A DNA stretch of 45,394 nucleotides from a bacterium (GCA_030604405.1 JAUVVY010000035.1:1-45394), one strand, 5' to 3'. Shown: positions 1-37,395, counted from the first letter of the stretch. Notes: generated by a model not told the origin, from the sequence alone. Numbers and translations: made by a program.

Positions 1-135
1 CCGCTGCATGTATTATACGGCCGGCGCGGTATGAACGCGCGGCCCACAACACCCGGCGTTCTGTAGGGCGGGGACTTGTGCCCCGCCGCTGCATGTATTA
101 TACGGCCGGCGCGGTACAAGCCCGCGCCCTACAAG
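1..135. repeat. GC-rich hairpin repeat cluster
   Basis: Two 31-bp identical direct repeats (1-31 and 86-116) flank a hairpin of the form GGCGGGG-acttgtg-CCCCGCC. The second repeat runs into another hairpin in which GGCGCGG pairs with CCGCGCC. The same two hairpin cores recur, in swapped order, at 32004-32072. The remaining bases to 236 show no gene or clear signal. Confidence 0.75.
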
Positions 136-5870: not shown

Positions 5871-5959
5871 GGAAATTGGGGACAGTCACGTATTTCTTGC
5901 GATTTCTCTAAGTTGCACTCCTACTCCTGAGCAGAAATAGGTGACTGTCCCCAATTTCC
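5871..5959. repeat. 89-bp MITE-like palindromic element, copy 1
   Basis: Perfect 19-bp terminal inverted repeats (5871-5889 and 5941-5959; left arm GGAAATTGGGGACAGTCAC). The pairing continues for 7 more bases after one G-G mismatch, and the centre of about 35 bp is shared with the copies at 14712-14799 (inverted) and 37309-37394. It sits in the divergent gap between the prepilin gene and aroA. It encodes nothing and resembles REP/MITE elements mobilised in trans. Confidence 0.9.
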
Positions 5960-14711: not shown

Positions 14712-14799
14712 GGAAATTAGGGACAGTCACCTATTTCTGCAGATGAGTAGGAGTGGAATTCACGGAAATCGCGAGAAATGGGTGACAGTCCCCAATTTC
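14712..14799. repeat. MITE-like palindromic element, copy 3 (inverted)
   Basis: Arms at 14712-14738 and 14774-14799 form a long inverted repeat with a few mismatches (left arm GGAAATTAGGGACAGTCACC). The centre is the reverse complement of the centre at 5890-5940, so this copy is inserted in the opposite orientation. It lies between the DUF6785-like gene and the sialidase-fold gene. Confidence 0.85.
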
Positions 14800-14825
14800 G
14801 TAGTTCCAGCTAAGGAGTGAGCGCA

Positions 14826-23606: not shown

Positions 23607-23675
23607 CTGCGTTCAGCGTTTGCATTGGCACGACAACCACCACCCACTCTGCGAGTGACCGTAGTGACGTCAATG

Positions 23676-23826
23676 CTAGTACTCCAACGACAGTTGCCGG
23701 TAGTGTGTCATTCTGAGCGACTGGAAGCAGCGGAGAATCCCGTTCCGGGCCTCTCCTCGCGCATGGCACGACCGGATTCTTCGGCGCTACACGGCCCAGA
23801 ATCACAAAGCCTCGTTGTAGCACTAG
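23676..23826. mobile_element. 151-bp MITE-like element, left copy
   Basis: It begins CTAGTACTCCAAC and ends GTTGTAGCACTAG, giving imperfect terminal inverted repeats of about 12 bp, with further internal palindromic pairing (CCGAAGAA/TTCTTCGG type). By hand alignment it matches the element at 26336-26486 without gaps, with about 21 differences in 151 positions. Both are in the same orientation. It encodes no protein and no transposase is in the window. It ends 20 bases before the last stop codon of the nuclease cassette. Confidence 0.85.
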
Positions 23827-23846
23827 TCACTTGACCTTTATCGCAT

Positions 23847-24287
23847 TCATGGGGGCAGAGCTACGTCGCCGCGGACCTCGATGCCGCGGTGTTCGTAGAG
23901 GAACAGAACCAACCCCGCTGGCGGCGGTTCAGGGCATTCCCCAGCGAACGCGACTCCCGTTACAAGATTCGCTTCTTCAACGCGCTCTACCCTTGCAGCT
24001 CTGCGGATATCATCGTGGTAGGCGTCGCTCGCGAGCCGGGCGAGCTTCCGGACGTCGGCAACAGAGTACGCTGGCTTTGACTCGACCACCAGCAGGTCCG
24101 TGCCCCTCAGAGCAACGATGTCCGGGACTATTGCGTCTGGCGCCCGCTGGCCCGGGACAACTCTGCGGAAGCGAGGTCCCCCTTGCGTGCCCGGGTAGTG
24201 CACGCTGGACAGCTCCCAGCCCCTTTCTTCCAGCCGGTCTGCCAGCGTACGCGTTATCTCTTCCTCGGCGACCTCGCCGCGGCTCAT
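23847..24287 (-). CDS. Small PD-(D/E)XK nuclease-like protein
   Basis: 146 residues with no recognised family. After a helical N-terminus (SRGEVAEEEITRTLADRLEE) a nuclease-like core reads VPDIVALRGTDLLVVESKPA. The Pro55-Asp56 pair and Glu69-x-Lys71 fit the PD-(D/E)XK metal-binding pattern. A helix (VADVRKLARLASDAY) and strands follow. It is the last gene of the methyltransferase cassette, 104 bases after the larger nuclease-like gene. It may be a restriction subunit, a nicking/Vsr-like partner or a specificity helper. The start is the ATG at 24287 with AAGGAT upstream; the frame is open 50 codons further, but an ATG at 24368 touches its AGG site and is unlikely to be used. Confidence 0.6.
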   Translation of the reverse strand: MSRGEVAEEEITRTLADRLEERGWELSSVHYPGTQGGPRFRRVVPGQRAPDAIVPDIVALRGTDLLVVESKPAYSVADVRKLARLASDAYHDDIRRAARVERVEEANLVTGVAFAGECPEPPPAGLVLFLYEHRGIEVRGDVALPP

Positions 24288-24391
24288 ATGATGACCCCAT
24301 CCTTGAAGATGATAATGTTGGCAAACGCGCAGATGGTTCGGATCTCCTTTTGCTTTGTGTACCGACATCCCTCCCGCAGATGGAGCGAGTA

Positions 24392-25438
24392 CTAAGGATT
24401 CAGGTTCGCGTCGTCCGCCTCCTTGCGCAGAGGACAATCGCGCTCATGGTATCTCTGTGCTTTACCCACTACTTGGCTGATGGAGGCTTCCCTGAAGTGG
24501 ATCGCCAGGCTGCGGAACCTGTGTTGGCGGGTGGGCCCGTTGCGGCACCGCAGGTAGTCCACGGCTGTCAGCGCCCCAGCGTACGGATCGCTGCGCAAGC
24601 TCTTCGAGTAGTTGTGATGGATGACCGTCTGCCCACGAGCTTTCATCTCGTCGGGGAAGCTGGGTATCCACACCCCTGTGCGCTGCCGGATCATTCCCCG
24701 CACTTGGTTCAGATCGTCGAACGTAGTGCACGAAGTAAGTGGCGACCAACGCCGCCGATTGCCGCCCCGAGCATGAAACCATCCCGACATCCTGTCCTGG
24801 TGCTCAGCGTAGTACTCGGTGAACACCATTTTAGAGAACGGTTCATTCGCAAGGTGGTGCTCCACAGCTAGGTTGACGAATGCCCACATCTGCTCGATCT
24901 CGGGGGCGCCCGCGCGTGGCAGGCAATAGCCCCTTTTCTCACACACCAGGTATCCCTGTTCCGCGTCACCACGCTCCTTGTCTGCGGGCCAGAGGAAGCC
25001 CAAGGCCGGAACACCGTGGAAACGTGACATCTGGACGAGCGTCTTGAAGACCAATGGATTGTACTCATCCCAGCGTCCCTTCCCTGCGCGCAGCACCCAC
25101 CTGCGTTGAGGAAAAACGTACGCGAACGGGACACCGTACTCAAGGGACGCAACAACCCGCGCCATGGGTTGAAAGCAGTCATGACCTGTCGGTGCGTGCG
25201 CAGAGAATTCCAGGCCTACGATGGGTTTCTCGGGCTTCCCTGAGGTCACAATGACGTCGGGCTTGTCCAGGTAGAGGATGTCCTGGATCAGTTTCGGGTT
25301 TGCTGCGAAGTCGCTTCCCTTCTCGCCGATCTGGCGGAATTCACAGGAGTACTGCTGCAGGGACGTGTGTCGGACGACGAACTCAGCCAGGTGTCTGGCC
25401 TCTCCGTACCACACGGTGAAGCGAGGGCGGCGCGGCAT
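24392..25438 (-). CDS. Predicted restriction endonuclease-like protein
   Basis: 348 residues, not matched to a known named enzyme. A nuclease-like core near the N-terminus reads IQDILYLDKPDVIVTSGKPE with Pro60-Asp61, then VGLEFSAHAPTGHD with Glu77-x-Ser79. That is PD-(D/E)XK geometry with serine in place of the usual lysine. The remainder (100-348) is alpha/beta with many aromatic and basic residues and could hold target recognition. The gene lies 3 bases after the DNA methyltransferase stop, with GGGGGAG upstream of its ATG. By position it is the expected restriction partner of that methyltransferase, which is the main reason for the call. Confidence 0.6.
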   Translation of the reverse strand: MPRRPRFTVWYGEARHLAEFVVRHTSLQQYSCEFRQIGEKGSDFAANPKLIQDILYLDKPDVIVTSGKPEKPIVGLEFSAHAPTGHDCFQPMARVVASLEYGVPFAYVFPQRRWVLRAGKGRWDEYNPLVFKTLVQMSRFHGVPALGFLWPADKERGDAEQGYLVCEKRGYCLPRAGAPEIEQMWAFVNLAVEHHLANEPFSKMVFTEYYAEHQDRMSGWFHARGGNRRRWSPLTSCTTFDDLNQVRGMIRQRTGVWIPSFPDEMKARGQTVIHHNYSKSLRSDPYAGALTAVDYLRCRNGPTRQHRFRSLAIHFREASISQVVGKAQRYHERDCPLRKEADDANLNP

Positions 25439-25441
25439 TCA

Positions 25442-26239
25442 TCACTCCCCCTTTACCAGTCGCTCCATGTGCTTGTTCAACTCGCTCTCCGCCAGTTCGC
25501 AGTACTTCTCGCTGATGTCATAGCCTATCCCCTTGCGGCCAGCCTTGCGCGCAGCGATCACTGTTGTTCCCGTGCCAAGGAAAGGATCGAGGACGACCTC
25601 ATCGGGATAGGAGAACAGATAGATCAACCGTTCAGCTAACTCAAGCGGGAATGGCGCGGGATGGCCCTTCGTCTTGGACACGTCAAGCTCCCAGACGCTC
25701 CAAGCGACGCGTTTGATGAAGTTCTCCGACAGCCTGTCGTGCTTGGGGGGCTCGAACGCGCCCTCGCGCTGGAACACCAGTACGAACTCGTGTTGGATGT
25801 TGATGGCCGCACAACAAGGATAAGGATTGTCCTTCAGGAACTGGGTCGTCCCCCGTTGCCACAGTCCTTGTGTGCCCTTGGGCTTCTTCCAGATGAACTC
25901 CTTGCCTAGCGTGAACCCGTGCTTTCCGAAAATCTCGATGCTGTCGGCGGGTATGTGCTTCAGGTCGCCGTGCGAGACACGCGTGCCGATGACCCAGCAC
26001 AGGAAGCGGCCAGGCGCGAGTATCCTTTTACACTCGGTCGCCACGAGATGCAGTTGCCCAAGGTACTCCTCATACGACTCGCCAAGCCCGATCTGCTTGC
26101 TGTTGCGATAGTTCTTGATATCCCAGTAAGGCGGGCTCGTGACAATCAACTGCACGGACTGGCGGCTCAATGCCTCCATATTGCGGGCATCTCCGCAGTA
26201 GATGGTCACTGCCTCGTCCTGGTAGACAGGTCCTTTCAT
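25442..26239 (-). CDS. Site-specific DNA methyltransferase, beta class
   Basis: 265 residues. It transfers a methyl group from SAM to an amino group of adenine or cytosine in a specific DNA site. Motif IV TSPPYWD (34-40) precedes motif I DPFLGTGTTVIAA (218-230), the order of beta-class enzymes. An SPPY motif is most often found in N4-cytosine methyltransferases, though N6-adenine is possible. IGLGESYEEYLGQLHLV and WVIGTRVSHGD are typical of type II stand-alone enzymes. The ATG at 26239 has GGGGAGA upstream; the frame is open 27 codons further. It is the first gene of the three-gene cassette, with a 151-bp repeat element 97 bases upstream, which would hold or border the promoter. Confidence 0.9.
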   Translation of the reverse strand: MKGPVYQDEAVTIYCGDARNMEALSRQSVQLIVTSPPYWDIKNYRNSKQIGLGESYEEYLGQLHLVATECKRILAPGRFLCWVIGTRVSHGDLKHIPADSIEIFGKHGFTLGKEFIWKKPKGTQGLWQRGTTQFLKDNPYPCCAAINIQHEFVLVFQREGAFEPPKHDRLSENFIKRVAWSVWELDVSKTKGHPAPFPLELAERLIYLFSYPDEVVLDPFLGTGTTVIAARKAGRKGIGYDISEKYCELAESELNKHMERLVKGE

Positions 26240-26335
26240 TCTCCCCGTCCCCTTGTTGAGATGACTCACCATTGCACGATTCGGCCGGGCCTGCGACTCT
26301 GACCACTGCCGCGTTGCCATCTTGGGGAACTGGTG

Positions 26336-26486
26336 CTAGTGCTACAAGCAGAGTTGTCGGTGGTGTATCATTCTGAGCGACTGGAAGCACCGAAGAAGCC
26401 CGTTCCGGGCCTCTCCTCGCCTATGGTACGACCGGATTCTTCGGCACTACACGCCCCAAAATGAGGAAGCCTCGTTGTAGTACTAG
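26336..26486. mobile_element. 151-bp MITE-like element, right copy
   Basis: It begins CTAGTGCTACAA and ends TTGTAGTACTAG; the two ends are 12-bp inverted repeats with one mismatch. Length and orientation are identical to 23676-23826 and the sequence agrees at about 86% of positions. It lies between the methyltransferase gene and tRNA-Pro. No obvious target duplication flanks either copy apart from the CTAG ends themselves. Confidence 0.85.
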
Positions 26487-26521: not shown

Positions 26522-26599
26522 TGGTCGGGGCGGCCGGACTTGAACCGGCGACCTTTGGTCCCCCAGACCAACGCGCTAGCCAAACTGCGCCACGCCCCG
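26522..26599 (-). tRNA. tRNA-Pro (anticodon GGG)
   Basis: The cloverleaf is complete. The acceptor stem CGGGGCG pairs with CGCCCCG, the D arm has GCGC/GCGC, and the anticodon stem TTGGT/ACCAA encloses a CTGGGGG loop giving anticodon GGG (reads CCC and CCU). The T arm is GCCGG-TTCAAGT-CCGGC, the discriminator is A, and CCA is encoded. It lies 11 bases after the HU stop on the same strand, so it is probably co-transcribed. Its 3' end points toward the repeat-bracketed nuclease cassette, a common position for integrated DNA. Confidence 0.96.
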
Positions 26600-31947: not shown

Positions 31948-32003
31948 TACATTGGCGGCACCTGGGTGCATGTACCAATTGTCGGCAGCCGGAGTATAAC
32001 ACG

Positions 32004-32072
32004 ACCGGCGCGGTACAAGCCCGCGCCCTACAACAACCGCCGGTCTGTAGGGCGGGGACTTGTGCCCCGCCG
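32004..32072. repeat. GC-rich hairpin repeat pair
   Basis: Two hairpins, GGCGCGG-tacaag-CCGCGCC type (32007 on) and GGCGGGG-acttgtg-CCCCGCC (32051 on), each flanked by CTACAA or TGTAGG. Both hairpins are also found at 1-135 in the opposite order. The element lies in the gap between leuC and the YraN gene. Confidence 0.8.
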
Positions 32073-32645: not shown

Positions 32646-33923
32646 TTACTCTTCAGGCGCTGGCGGCTCGGGTACGAGGCCCCTCTCCACCAGATCGTTA
32701 TATATCTCCTCTGCCTCGGCCGGGGTGTCGGCCGGGCCGATGGCAAACTGCATCTCCACGAATTCGTCGGTTTTCAGCTTGGCGGACGGCGAATGCAGTA
32801 TCATGGTGTCAAATCTGCTCTGGCTGAACCTGCAGTCGGACATCCATACCAGGCCCGGCTTGTCTTCGCTGCGCGGCGCCAGCCACACCCAGCCGACCTT
32901 GCCGATATCCAGGTATGCGTCCTTGGCCACGCCCTCCCATTCCTGCTTGCCCTCGGTCGGTGTGACAAAGTAGGCGCCCGGCAGCCAGCCCCAAAAGAAC
33001 TGCCCGTCGGCTTCGTTTTCACCGATGTTGTAGAGGCGACTGGTGACCAGCAGACAAGGCGTATCAGGCCGGATTGTCAGTTCGTACTCGATCCGCGCCC
33101 TGCCATCCGCAACGGGCTCCTGCTTATCATCCTGCAGACGCGTGGACTTGATAAGGACCGTTTTTGCTTCTGCGGTATCCTCGATCACCGCCACGTCGGT
33201 CAGTTCAAGAGGGTACACCCAGCCGCCCAAGGTGCCGGTCAGATAGAGCTGCATGCCAACGGGCAAGGCGATCTGCTTGCTGAGACCGGGCTCAAAGCTG
33301 AAGCCGCCGGCGCTGTTGGCCAGCGATATGCTCTGCATGTCGTCGCTGACCGATATGCCCACGACGGTGAAGCTCACAGGCCATGACCTGGCATTGCCCA
33401 GGGGCGCCATGTCGGTGAGCTTGAGCACGCCGTCATAGGTGCCTGCCTTCAGGCCCGACATCTTCGCCATCAGCCGCCCGGAGGTCTTCGGCGGGCCGAG
33501 ACCACTCGTATCAACATCCACCTCTGCCCCGGGCGCGCCCGTTAGACTGAACCTGGCATCGGCGGCAGATATGGGATTGTTGTCGTCCTTAATGCCCACG
33601 ATCACTTCGGCAGTGTCGCTGGTCAGGCAACCCAGGGCAAGCGTGTCCGTAGAGGACGGCCGGGAGGTGCCATTGACCTTCAATCCGCTCAGTTCTGGTG
33701 GCGTGGTATCGTCCAGCACCATCCACTCGGGCTTGTCAACAACGAGGATAGCTTCGCCACCGGGCGCGATCTGTGGGCCGATTTCGATCTGCAGCCGCCC
33801 GTCTTCTACCGGCGCCTCGATACTCGCCCAGGATCCGTCAGCCGCGCGGTAGTAAACCCTGTCACAATAGCCCGCTGCAACAGCCAGACATAGAACCAGC
33901 AGTGTCACGCCAAGCTTTTTCAT
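32646..33923 (-). CDS. Secreted protein, tandem paralogue B
   Basis: 425 residues with a signal peptide (MKKLGVTLLVLCLAVAAGYC). Beta-rich throughout; no family recognised. Shared signatures with paralogue A are VYYRAADGSWASIEAPVEDG near 23, PEWMVLDDT, DVDTSGLGPPKTSGR near 140, RSWPVSFTVVGISVSDD near 180, WGWLPGAYF, IGKVGWVWLAPR and the end PADTPAEAEEIYNDLVERGL. The C-terminal TPAEAE-IY-DLV-GL helix is conserved in both. ATG at 33923 (AAGGG upstream) is preferred over the GTG at 33935. It follows paralogue A by 4 bases and is probably co-expressed. Likely an extracellular or periplasmic protein with several immunoglobulin-like or sandwich domains. Confidence 0.75.
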   Translation of the reverse strand: MKKLGVTLLVLCLAVAAGYCDRVYYRAADGSWASIEAPVEDGRLQIEIGPQIAPGGEAILVVDKPEWMVLDDTTPPELSGLKVNGTSRPSSTDTLALGCLTSDTAEVIVGIKDDNNPISAADARFSLTGAPGAEVDVDTSGLGPPKTSGRLMAKMSGLKAGTYDGVLKLTDMAPLGNARSWPVSFTVVGISVSDDMQSISLANSAGGFSFEPGLSKQIALPVGMQLYLTGTLGGWVYPLELTDVAVIEDTAEAKTVLIKSTRLQDDKQEPVADGRARIEYELTIRPDTPCLLVTSRLYNIGENEADGQFFWGWLPGAYFVTPTEGKQEWEGVAKDAYLDIGKVGWVWLAPRSEDKPGLVWMSDCRFSQSRFDTMILHSPSAKLKTDEFVEMQFAIGPADTPAEAEEIYNDLVERGLVPEPPAPEE

Positions 33924-33927
33924 AGGA

Positions 33928-35202
33928 TTATTCACCCTTTTCGACCGGTGTCACCAGGCCCTTTGCGACCAGGTCCTCGTATATCTGCTCCGCCTCGGCG
34001 GGGCTGTCAGCCGGAGCGAACGCGAGCTTCATTGCGACGAATTCGCCAGGCTTGGTCGTGCCTCCGCTGCCGTACAACAGGATGCTCCCGCCCATGAATT
34101 CACCAAAGCTGTCCGCCGAGACCCACAGCAGACCGGGCTGCCCTTCCGTCCTGGGCGCCAGCCACAGCCAGCCCACTTTCCCGATAGTGCTGTATCTGGC
34201 CTTATCCCCGCCGCTGCTCCATTCCTGCTGACCCTCAGGGGTGCAATAGTAGGGACACGGGAGCCAGCCCCAGTTGGGGCTATTGCTGATATCCTTGTCA
34301 GATATGTTGATGGAGCGGGTGGTGACCAGCAACGCCGGCGTGTCGGAGCGCACTGTAAGCTCGTATTCCAACTTTCCAAGGCCTTCGGTCGGGTTGTCTT
34401 CAAGGTCCACAACATTGGCGGTGACCAGCACCGTCTTCTCCTGCTCAGTGTCCTTGATGATTTCAACGTCAGTGAACTCGCGCGGATACAGATACGTGCC
34501 CCCCATATTTGAGGTCAGCTTGGCCCACAGGCCGTTGGGCAGCAGAAGCTGCTGTTCCTTCGTCCCAGTCGCCATCAGATACCCGGCCCCGAGGCCGGCC
34601 AGCGATACGCTCTGCTTGTCATCACTGACTGAGATGCCCATGACGGTAAAGCTGACAGGCCAGCTTCTGGAATTACTCAGTGGGGCCATATCAGACAGCC
34701 TCAGCGTGCCCTGATACTGCCCGGCCTGCACCCCTGACATTTTCACCACCATGCGTCCCGAAGTCTTCGGGGGCCCGAGACCGCTGGTATCAACCTCAAC
34801 CGTCACATCGTGCGCATCCCCGAGGCGGAAGCTGGCGCCAGCGGCGTCTATCGGGTTCTTGTCGTCCTTGACGCCTATAACCACATCAGCCGTATCGCCA
34901 CTGAGGCACCCGAGCTGCAATGTATCGGTCGAGGTGGGCCGGGCCTCGCCGTTGACCTTCAGCCCCAACAGTGTAGGGGCATCGGTATCATCCAGCACCA
35001 TCCACTCGGGCTTGTTGATAACCAAGACGGCTTCCCCGTTAGGGGCAGCTTGCGGGCCGATCTCGATATGCAGCCGCCCGTCTTCGACCGCGGCCTCCAT
35101 GCTCGCCCAGGAGCCGTCAGCCGTCCGGTAATAGACCGTGTCACAGTAACCGACTGCGACAGTCAGGCAAATCACTAGCAACGTCACGCCAAGGGTTCTC
35201 AT
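33928..35202 (-). CDS. Secreted protein, tandem paralogue A
   Basis: 424 residues with a signal peptide (MRTLGVTLLVICLTVAVGYC). Clearly homologous to the next gene over its whole length (for example VYYRTADGSWASMEAAVEDG, PEWMVLDDT, DTSGLGPPKTSGRM, SRSWPVSFTVMGISVSDDKQ and IGKVGWLWLAPR). Differences cluster in the middle (residues 200-300), where B has a shorter loop. The start at 35202 has AGGTGG upstream; the open frame extends 25 codons further. Two adjacent paralogues with the same domain order are a recent tandem duplication. No enzyme motif is visible. Confidence 0.75.
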   Translation of the reverse strand: MRTLGVTLLVICLTVAVGYCDTVYYRTADGSWASMEAAVEDGRLHIEIGPQAAPNGEAVLVINKPEWMVLDDTDAPTLLGLKVNGEARPTSTDTLQLGCLSGDTADVVIGVKDDKNPIDAAGASFRLGDAHDVTVEVDTSGLGPPKTSGRMVVKMSGVQAGQYQGTLRLSDMAPLSNSRSWPVSFTVMGISVSDDKQSVSLAGLGAGYLMATGTKEQQLLLPNGLWAKLTSNMGGTYLYPREFTDVEIIKDTEQEKTVLVTANVVDLEDNPTEGLGKLEYELTVRSDTPALLVTTRSINISDKDISNSPNWGWLPCPYYCTPEGQQEWSSGGDKARYSTIGKVGWLWLAPRTEGQPGLLWVSADSFGEFMGGSILLYGSGGTTKPGEFVAMKLAFAPADSPAEAEQIYEDLVAKGLVTPVEKGE

Positions 35203-35273
35203 TGTCTTCACCACCTGCAATAGTCTCACTATGTATATGTTTGACGCCCGCGGCCGAGTACCTTCCTGCAATG

Positions 35274-35870
35274 TCATTTCCAGACCCGCCGCTCGCTCGT
35301 CCAGGCCCCCTTGTTTTCTGGTTCGATCTCGTGGCCCACCGACTCATCCGGGTCGAACAGCAGGTTGCGCCGCTTTATGATCTCATCCCGCAGTCCGGCC
35401 CATTCGTCGTAAACCTGCGGCGCCGAGCCCGGAGTAACGTAGGCAAGCCGCAAGGTGCTGACGCGGCCGCGGTCGCCGATCACGCGCATTGCCAGCCTGT
35501 GCCGCCGGCTGGGGGCCAGGCCACTGCCCCATGTGGTCAACTGGATAAGCGCAGCGATGTTCTCCCATGCGACGAACTCGCGCCTCCCCAGCCAGTCCTG
35601 AACTAAGACCCCACCGTAGCAGATTCCTACTTTGCTGTTGCGTTCGCGCAGAAAAGCCGAGAGTGCGAACAGGGCGACGGGAAGGCAAAGCGCGCCGGGC
35701 ATCGCCACGTATAGCGGATGTTCCGCCAGGTTGATGCGTCCCGCCACGATAATATATGCCGTCATCCCTGCCACAAGCAGCACCAGGAAGAAAACCATCA
35801 TAGCCTGCCAGTATCCGCCGGCTCCGGTGCGGTACACTTTTTCACATAGCCACAGCTCTGTCGGATTCAT
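35274..35870 (-). CDS. Small two-helix membrane protein
   Basis: 198 residues. Two hydrophobic helices lie near residues 22-44 (AMMVFFLVLLVAGMTAYIIV) and 56-73, followed by a soluble domain with VGICYGGVLVQDWLGRREFV and AWENIAAL, a pattern like a bacterial PH-domain membrane protein. The end is charged (SERRVWK). The ATG at 35870 is chosen for GGAGG 7 bases upstream; an earlier GTG overlaps it. A short remnant of a second copy of the C-terminus lies just upstream. The stop is 71 bases before paralogue A's start. Function unknown. Confidence 0.7.
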   Translation of the reverse strand: MNPTELWLCEKVYRTGAGGYWQAMMVFFLVLLVAGMTAYIIVAGRINLAEHPLYVAMPGALCLPVALFALSAFLRERNSKVGICYGGVLVQDWLGRREFVAWENIAALIQLTTWGSGLAPSRRHRLAMRVIGDRGRVSTLRLAYVTPGSAPQVYDEWAGLRDEIIKRRNLLFDPDESVGHEIEPENKGAWTSERRVWK

Positions 35871-37290: not shown

Positions 37291-37308
37291 GCTCATATTC
37301 TTACGTTG

Positions 37309-37394
37309 AGATTGGGGACAGTCACCCATTTCTTGCGATTTCTGTAAGTTGCACTGCTGCTGCTCTGGAGAAATGGGTGACTGTCCCCAATTTC
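37309..37394. repeat. MITE-like palindromic element, copy 4
   Basis: Arms of about 25 bp (left GATTGGGGACAGTCACCCAT, right ending CTGTCCCCAATTT). The centre matches copy 1 (TTGCGATTTCTxTAAGTTGC). The element ends two bases before the stop codon of the heparinase-like gene at 37396, so it lies at its 3' end. Confidence 0.88.
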
Positions 37395-37395
37395 C

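Follow-up and report, generated by a model that had tools for sequence, protein, structure and literature searches.

A restriction-modification operon between two IS701-type MITEs in an uncultured Armatimonadota bacterium, a candidate composite non-autonomous transposon

Organisation of the locus

The window (the whole stretch of DNA analysed, 45,394 nt, GCA_030604405.1 JAUVVY010000035.1:1-45394) originates from an uncultured Armatimonadota bacterium (genome G000), the assembly of which comprises 4.37 Mb in 96 contigs and is 97% complete. It contains a 2.8-kb package consisting of a three-gene DNA-defence operon between two 143-bp non-coding mobile elements (MITEs), with the following features:

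23676..23679, no strand: left target-site duplication, CTAG, 4 bp (a single CTAG at the empty site of the relative G001, two in the window)
23680..23822, no strand: left MITE, 143 bp, imperfect long palindrome with ends TACTCCAACGA / TGCTACAACGAG (repeat comparison; fold z = -3.1)
23823..23826, no strand: inner CTAG of the left MITE (sequence; CTAG/CTAG flanks)
23847..24287, minus strand: predicted small PD-(D/E)XK nuclease subunit, 146 aa, Hjc-like (alignment of five homologues; weak Pfam Hjc match)
24287..24391, minus strand: detached C-terminal tail of the large subunit, 35 codons (frame open past the TAG; kept in 4/4 homologues)
24392..25438, minus strand: predicted large restriction subunit resembling the type II nuclease BsmI, 348 aa as truncated (PADLOC PDLC03392; Foldseek)
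25442..26320, minus strand: beta-class DNA methyltransferase with a TSPPYW motif (Pfam N6_N4_Mtase; 2zie; tblastn)
26336..26339, no strand: inner CTAG of the right MITE (sequence; CTAG/CTAG flanks)
26340..26482, no strand: right MITE, 143 bp, with ends TGCTACAAGCAG / TACTACAACGAG (repeat comparison)
26483..26486, no strand: right target-site duplication, CTAG, 4 bp (empty-site comparison with G001)
26522..26599, minus strand: tRNA-Pro(GGG), its 3′ end facing the unit from 35 bp away

A preliminary description of this DNA had placed three genes and no others between the repeats, and this holds, with all three on the minus strand and no transposase gene inside the unit. Its assignment of these genes to a beta-class methyltransferase and two PD-(D/E)XK-like proteins is supported by Pfam, PADLOC, the alignment of homologues and Foldseek; while the gene calls stand, the details of the cassette are here corrected by the BsmI-like nature of the large subunit, its E-x-S motif, a probable nonsense mutation and the CTAG around each repeat copy. 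Base composition does not distinguish the unit (59.1% versus 60.5% G+C), and a scan of the unit for promoters found none.

A predicted type IIT-like restriction-modification operon

The methyltransferase matches Pfam N6_N4_Mtase (4.1e-41) and the putative modification methylase 2zie (3.5e-40). It belongs to the beta class and its TSPPYW motif, which we take here to mark the m4C type, points to an m4C methyltransferase in the cargo. Homology to relatives starts at about the ATG at 26239 (tblastn), and this is probably the true start rather than 26320. In G260, another genome of the phylum, the homologous operon (L170:3944-6178, on G260:C508) encodes two methyltransferase domains within one long frame of 745 residues, which is what an asymmetric recognition site would lead one to expect.

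The large subunit has no Pfam match. All five members of its family match PADLOC model PDLC03392 (type II nicking endonuclease, best 8.4e-9), and with the family profile a weak match to BsmI was obtained in the region of its P-D...E motif. BsmI also gave the sole Foldseek matches below 0.001, the truncated protein of the window scoring 1.7e-7 and the complete G027 homologue 2.2e-10; the models were of moderate confidence (mean pLDDT 60 and 66, respectively) and the TM-scores were below 0.5. As modelled, the large subunit thus resembles a BsmI-like type II nuclease, with E-x-S instead of E-x-K as active-site motif. The small subunit probably starts at 24287 and not at 24437, an upstream TTG start being disfavoured. 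Alignment of five homologues showed D56 and E69-S-K71 to be invariant, which is typical of PD-(D/E)XK nucleases, and four of the five members gave a weak match to Pfam Hjc (best 2.7e-4). This small second PD-ExK subunit is encoded beside the large subunit, with the same gene order in five genomes. Searches of the PDB with the single sequences of either subunit returned nothing, and only profile and fold searches matched.

The large subunit ends at an in-frame TAG (24392-24394), beyond which the reading frame continues for another 35 codons, and is 348 aa as truncated, compared with 378–384 aa in the relatives as read. The 35-residue tail is identical to that of the G027 homologue at 28/35 residues and is stop-free in all four homologues. 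The simplest reading is a recent nonsense mutation; a sequencing error at the TAG would be conceivable as well. Since the TAG removes a conserved tail, restriction may be failing in this genome, and is probably weakened or abolished. The TAG lies within CCTTAGTACTCG (window 24385-24400, minus strand), which resembles the YTAR-TACT of the MITE ends, probably by chance. Elsewhere in the genome, a weak match to the large subunit (G000:C58:80901-81173, locus L013; 28% identity, three stop codons) is possibly a decayed second copy, and no methyltransferase match was found in the 16 kb around it.

Judged from its sequence, the cargo probably belongs to the type IIT restriction-modification systems, of which BtsI and BsrDI are examples. 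BtsI has a large subunit for recognition and nicking and a small second catalytic subunit (PMC2909958), and type IIT enzymes have been summarised in PMC4081073. Compared with BtsI, BsrDI and BsmI as described there, the window operon shares a BsmI-related large subunit and, as in BtsI, an adjoining small PD-(D/E)XK subunit. It differs from BsmI, a single chain of about 676 aa, in having two separate subunits with the large one truncated, and from BtsI, which has two methyltransferases, in having one. In type IIT systems a pair of methyltransferases, separate or fused, is the usual state, whereas there is one in the window operon and a two-domain frame in G260. The large subunit would bind an asymmetric site and cut one strand, the small subunit would cut the other, and the methyltransferase would protect the host.

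The flanking MITEs

Self-comparison of the window gave direct repeats at 23674-23826 and 26334-26486 which are 86% identical and in the same orientation, as the earlier description of two 151-bp elements of about 86% identity had stated. Each 151-bp block (23676-23826 and 26336-26486) is a 143-bp MITE flanked by CTAG, and without the CTAG both are exactly 143 bp and are 85% identical over the 143 positions. Each MITE has imperfect inverted repeats at its ends (TACTCCAACGA / TGCTACAACGAG left, TGCTACAAGCAG / TACTACAACGAG right), and both MITEs are long imperfect palindromes, with DNA folding relative to shuffled sequences giving z = -3.1 for the left block (23676-23826) and a weaker z = -1.85 for the right. 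The inner CTAG of the left MITE is read as a relic of an earlier insertion of that MITE in a donor.

The whole 4.37-Mb genome contains these two copies only, one bounding each side of the unit. The two MITEs differ by about 15%, compared with a difference of about 6% between the flanks and the sister genome, so that the two copies had diverged from each other before they were inserted. Few genomes carry this MITE family: beyond G000, a scan of the phylum was clear only in G033 (one copy, in a genome labelled Candidatus Zipacnadia) and G041 (many copies), both Armatimonadota, while a pattern scan of genome contigs gave three loci only, all from two genomes already found, and no copy was found anywhere in the genus and family relatives searched. 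Copies of a sister subfamily in G041 are flanked by 4-bp duplications (TTAG/TTAG twice, CTAA/CTAA twice, TTAA/TTAA and CTAC/CTAC), which read by eye match in six of eight copies, and one further copy was separately found with TTAG/TTAG.

Two MITEs about 3.5 kb apart on contig C87 of G041 were considered as a composite around other cargo and rejected as such; each has its own matching duplication, so that they represent separate insertions. Many G041 contigs (C19, C20, C38, C40, C66, C67, C73 and C82) end inside IS701 elements or MITEs, which suggests that this genome may hold numerous unresolved copies of both.

Other repeats are also present in the window. An 88-bp palindromic repeat with ends GGGGACAGTCACC...GGTGACTGTCCCC occurs in three copies (5872-5959, 14713-14800 and 37308-37395) and is presumably of the kind that accompanies REP-associated tyrosine transposases; a GGGGACTGACA palindrome resembling it lies within MITEs of G041. 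A repeat with TGTAGGGCGGGGACTTGTGCCCCGCCG has three copies (window 1-134 and 31985-32072), and two tandem paralogous genes (32646-33935 and 33928-35277), for which no Pfam match was found, share stretches of 72–74% identity at a spacing of 1279.

Relationship to the IS701 family

The ends of the MITEs (CTAG-TACTACAACGAG...) match those of full-length IS701-family elements of the phylum, which are about 1.5 kb long, have ends of the form YTAG-TNNTACAAC and have matching duplications. Such elements are located at G009:C54, G051:C225 and G055:C84 (1514–1547 bp; duplications CTAG, CTAG and TTAG, respectively), have the ends TNNTACAACG or TNNTACAACC, and carry T-N-N-TACAAC(G/C) at both termini; the same search at the other DDE_5 loci examined gave no full-length IS701 element with such ends. 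We judged the MITE end TACTACAACGA to match the full-length ends TTCTACAACGA, TATTACAACG and TAGTACAACC, and pieces of an IS701-family (DDE_5) element at G041 contig ends start with YTAR-TACTACTACGACG. A single intact element with a transposase and exactly these MITE ends was not found, the best match being about 14/17 bases.

IS630 was considered as the origin of the MITEs, since IS630 elements are associated with CTAG, with TA as the duplication. It was rejected, because an IS630-type DDE_3 transposase was not found in G000, the G041 duplications are 4 bp long and the IS701 elements of the phylum have matching ends.

Hallmarks of the IS701 family are a 4-bp duplication, a length of 1400–1550 bp and the end consensus YACT-Y--YR (PMC2266710). 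The MITE end TACTACAACG fits this consensus if aligned at its first base (T), the printed version having three unconserved bases before it. Duplications of 4 bp and YTAR type are seen at the unit (CTAG) and in G041 (TTAG, TTAA and CTAA, plus one CTAC). The window copies thus share with the family the 4-bp duplication and the end motif, the IS701 members of the phylum also having YTAR-type duplications, and differ from it in lacking a transposase gene and in being 143 bp long. No match to a DDE_5 (IS701) transposase was obtained in the 97% complete G000 assembly, nor was an autonomous IS701 partner detected within it. From the IS701-like ends together with the absence of DDE_5 from G000, we infer that a transposase working in trans moved the unit and did not travel with it, probably having been supplied from elsewhere.

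The empty site in a sister species

The closest relative, G001, is a sister species in which the adjoining aminotransferase is 93% identical, and the order of the aminotransferase, tRNA-Pro and HU genes is as in the window. The junction in G001 reads GACGTCAATG-CTAG-GAACGGTCGG, with one CTAG and neither MITE nor cassette, whereas that in the window reads GACGTCAATG-CTAG-[unit]-CTAG-GAACGGTCGG. After removal of 2,807 bp (the unit plus one CTAG), the window aligns with G001 without gaps over 823 bp at about 94% identity. In the congeners G002, G003 and G004, too, no unit is present between these genes, G001 alone being close enough for alignment at the level of single bases. This is the one integration site known for the unit.

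Since the G001 junction holds just one CTAG, with both the MITEs and the cassette missing, the unit is read as having been inserted whole, element, cassette and element arriving together with a 4-bp target duplication. The earlier suggestion that the module moves through small non-autonomous elements gains support from this empty site, the movement itself being deduced from sequence comparison. The earlier description had proposed to ask whether an empty site has one copy of the element; the G001 site is devoid of it, and this speaks for the unit having transposed as a whole rather than having been captured at a resident copy. The unit does adjoin the 3′ end of a tRNA gene, as described before, but this link is incidental, since relatives that lack the unit show the tRNA and HU genes in the same order.

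Distribution and probable lateral transfer of the cassette

The large-subunit family was found in 5/291 genomes of the phylum including G000, and thus in only 4/290 others, scattered over families. Searches of plasmid and phage records gave no large-subunit match, and a search for related loci with the large subunit found nothing. By tblastn, the order of the three genes is conserved in G027, G006 and G009, and G260 has the double-methyltransferase frame, the large subunit and a small PD-ExK frame, arranged likewise. No MITE ends were found in the flanking sequence read at the cassettes of G027, G006 and G009, and the association of MITEs and cassette is, from these comparisons, specific in G000 yet not obligatory; the MITEs would thus carry the operon rather than be part of it.

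Identities of the three cassette proteins are 76/64/40% to G027, a member of another family, and 68/51/39% to G006 of the same family, whereas the adjoining aminotransferase shows the reverse (64% to G027, 71% to G006). This discordance, seen in pairwise identities rather than a tree, indicates that the cassette may have arrived by lateral transfer.

Origin of the unit

Our preferred interpretation, to which we assign a probability of about 0.78, is that positions 23680-26482 constitute a composite non-autonomous transposon, in which two divergent IS701-type MITEs surround a type IIT-like restriction-modification operon, moved by a transposase acting in trans. An IS701-family transposase encoded elsewhere, provided by the source cell or a vector, would have treated the outermost MITE ends as the termini of a single long element and integrated this at a CTAG site.

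The main rival supposes that a MITE first inserted at the CTAG and that the cassette followed by homologous recombination with a MITE on an incoming circle, which predicts the same final anatomy, outer and inner CTAGs included; homologous recombination has been put forward as one of two routes for integrons with flanking MITEs (PMC3934969). What speaks against it is solely the absence of the MITE in relatives, as neither the sister species nor the three other congeners have one at this site and none was found in the genus and family relatives searched; this scenario needs two events and a resident copy that left no trace, and we regard it as unlikely. An ancestral unit precisely lost from the sister species would leave the same single CTAG, but the unit is likewise missing here from the less closely related G002, G003 and G004, and the large-subunit family is confined to its five scattered genomes, which makes such a loss very improbable.

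Restriction-modification systems reportedly generate long target duplications on insertion (PMC3031569), and the genes might by such an insertion or by recombination have moved alone, with two MITEs landing later. We give this equally little credence, since the empty site shows MITEs and cassette to correspond to the whole insertion, the duplication is 4 bp rather than long, and G000 has no other MITE copies to supply two later insertions. Hardly any weight can be given to an island targeted by a site-specific integrase to the 3′ end of tRNA-Pro: this end is only 35 bp away, but none of the three genes in the unit was identified as an integrase gene, the duplicated CTAG lies outside the tRNA, and relatives that lack the unit have the same tRNA neighbourhood.

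The route by which a lone defence operon passes from one bacterium to a distant one, with no plasmid, phage or integrase involved, is often obscure. For the composite transposon proposed here, one such step appears to be caught: the site is filled in G000 and empty in its sister species, the insertion is accompanied by a 4-bp duplication, and the ends of the unit point to a transposase family undetected in the host. Whether IS701-type MITE pairs are a general vehicle moving small defence operons into genomes without the matching transposase is a speculative extension that we hold to be rather doubtful. If true, the cargo would end up not re-mobilisable until a matching transposase enters, and this would explain defence genes that are seemingly stranded without a mobile element. 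Non-coding elements of 143 bp are easily overlooked by annotation, so that genomes can directly be scanned for defence genes bracketed by MITE pairs.

Comparison with known composite elements

Described MITE composites carry antibiotic-resistance, resolvase or plasmid-replication genes (PMC4133298, PMC13367494, PMC3934969), and a search of the literature, with incomplete coverage of the relevant reports, gave no account of a MITE pair carrying a restriction-modification operon. The unit is similar to TIME-COMP elements (PMC4133298, PMC13367494) in that two transposase-less MITEs bracket unrelated genes as one unit with a target duplication. In TIME-COMP the MITEs are in direct or inverse orientation, the transposase acts in trans, movement was shown experimentally and most examples are on plasmids, whereas the window unit is located in an ordinary chromosomal gene neighbourhood, has restriction-modification cargo, and its movement is deduced from sequence. 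TIME-COMP elements are derived from Tn3, with 5-bp duplications and 38-bp ends, compared with IS701-type TACTACAACGA ends and 4-bp, mostly YTAR duplications here; as TIME proper is of Tn3-family origin, the unit is only TIME-COMP-like.

The pairs of 439-bp MITEs around Acinetobacter integrons (PMC3934969) likewise have a MITE at both ends, with the outer direct repeats as evidence of movement; these are resistance integrons with a 5-bp duplication and the same MITE at both ends, whereas the window MITEs are about 15% apart. Restriction-modification systems flanked by IS elements are also known, PaeR7I having moved with IS copies (PMC3031569), and PluTI is cited in a passage of the same paper as a restriction-modification system on a putative mobile element. 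As far as that passage describes them, PaeR7I and PluTI share with the window unit a restriction-modification operon on a transposon-like unit, but the brackets of PaeR7I are IS copies, whereas those described here are complete non-autonomous MITEs.
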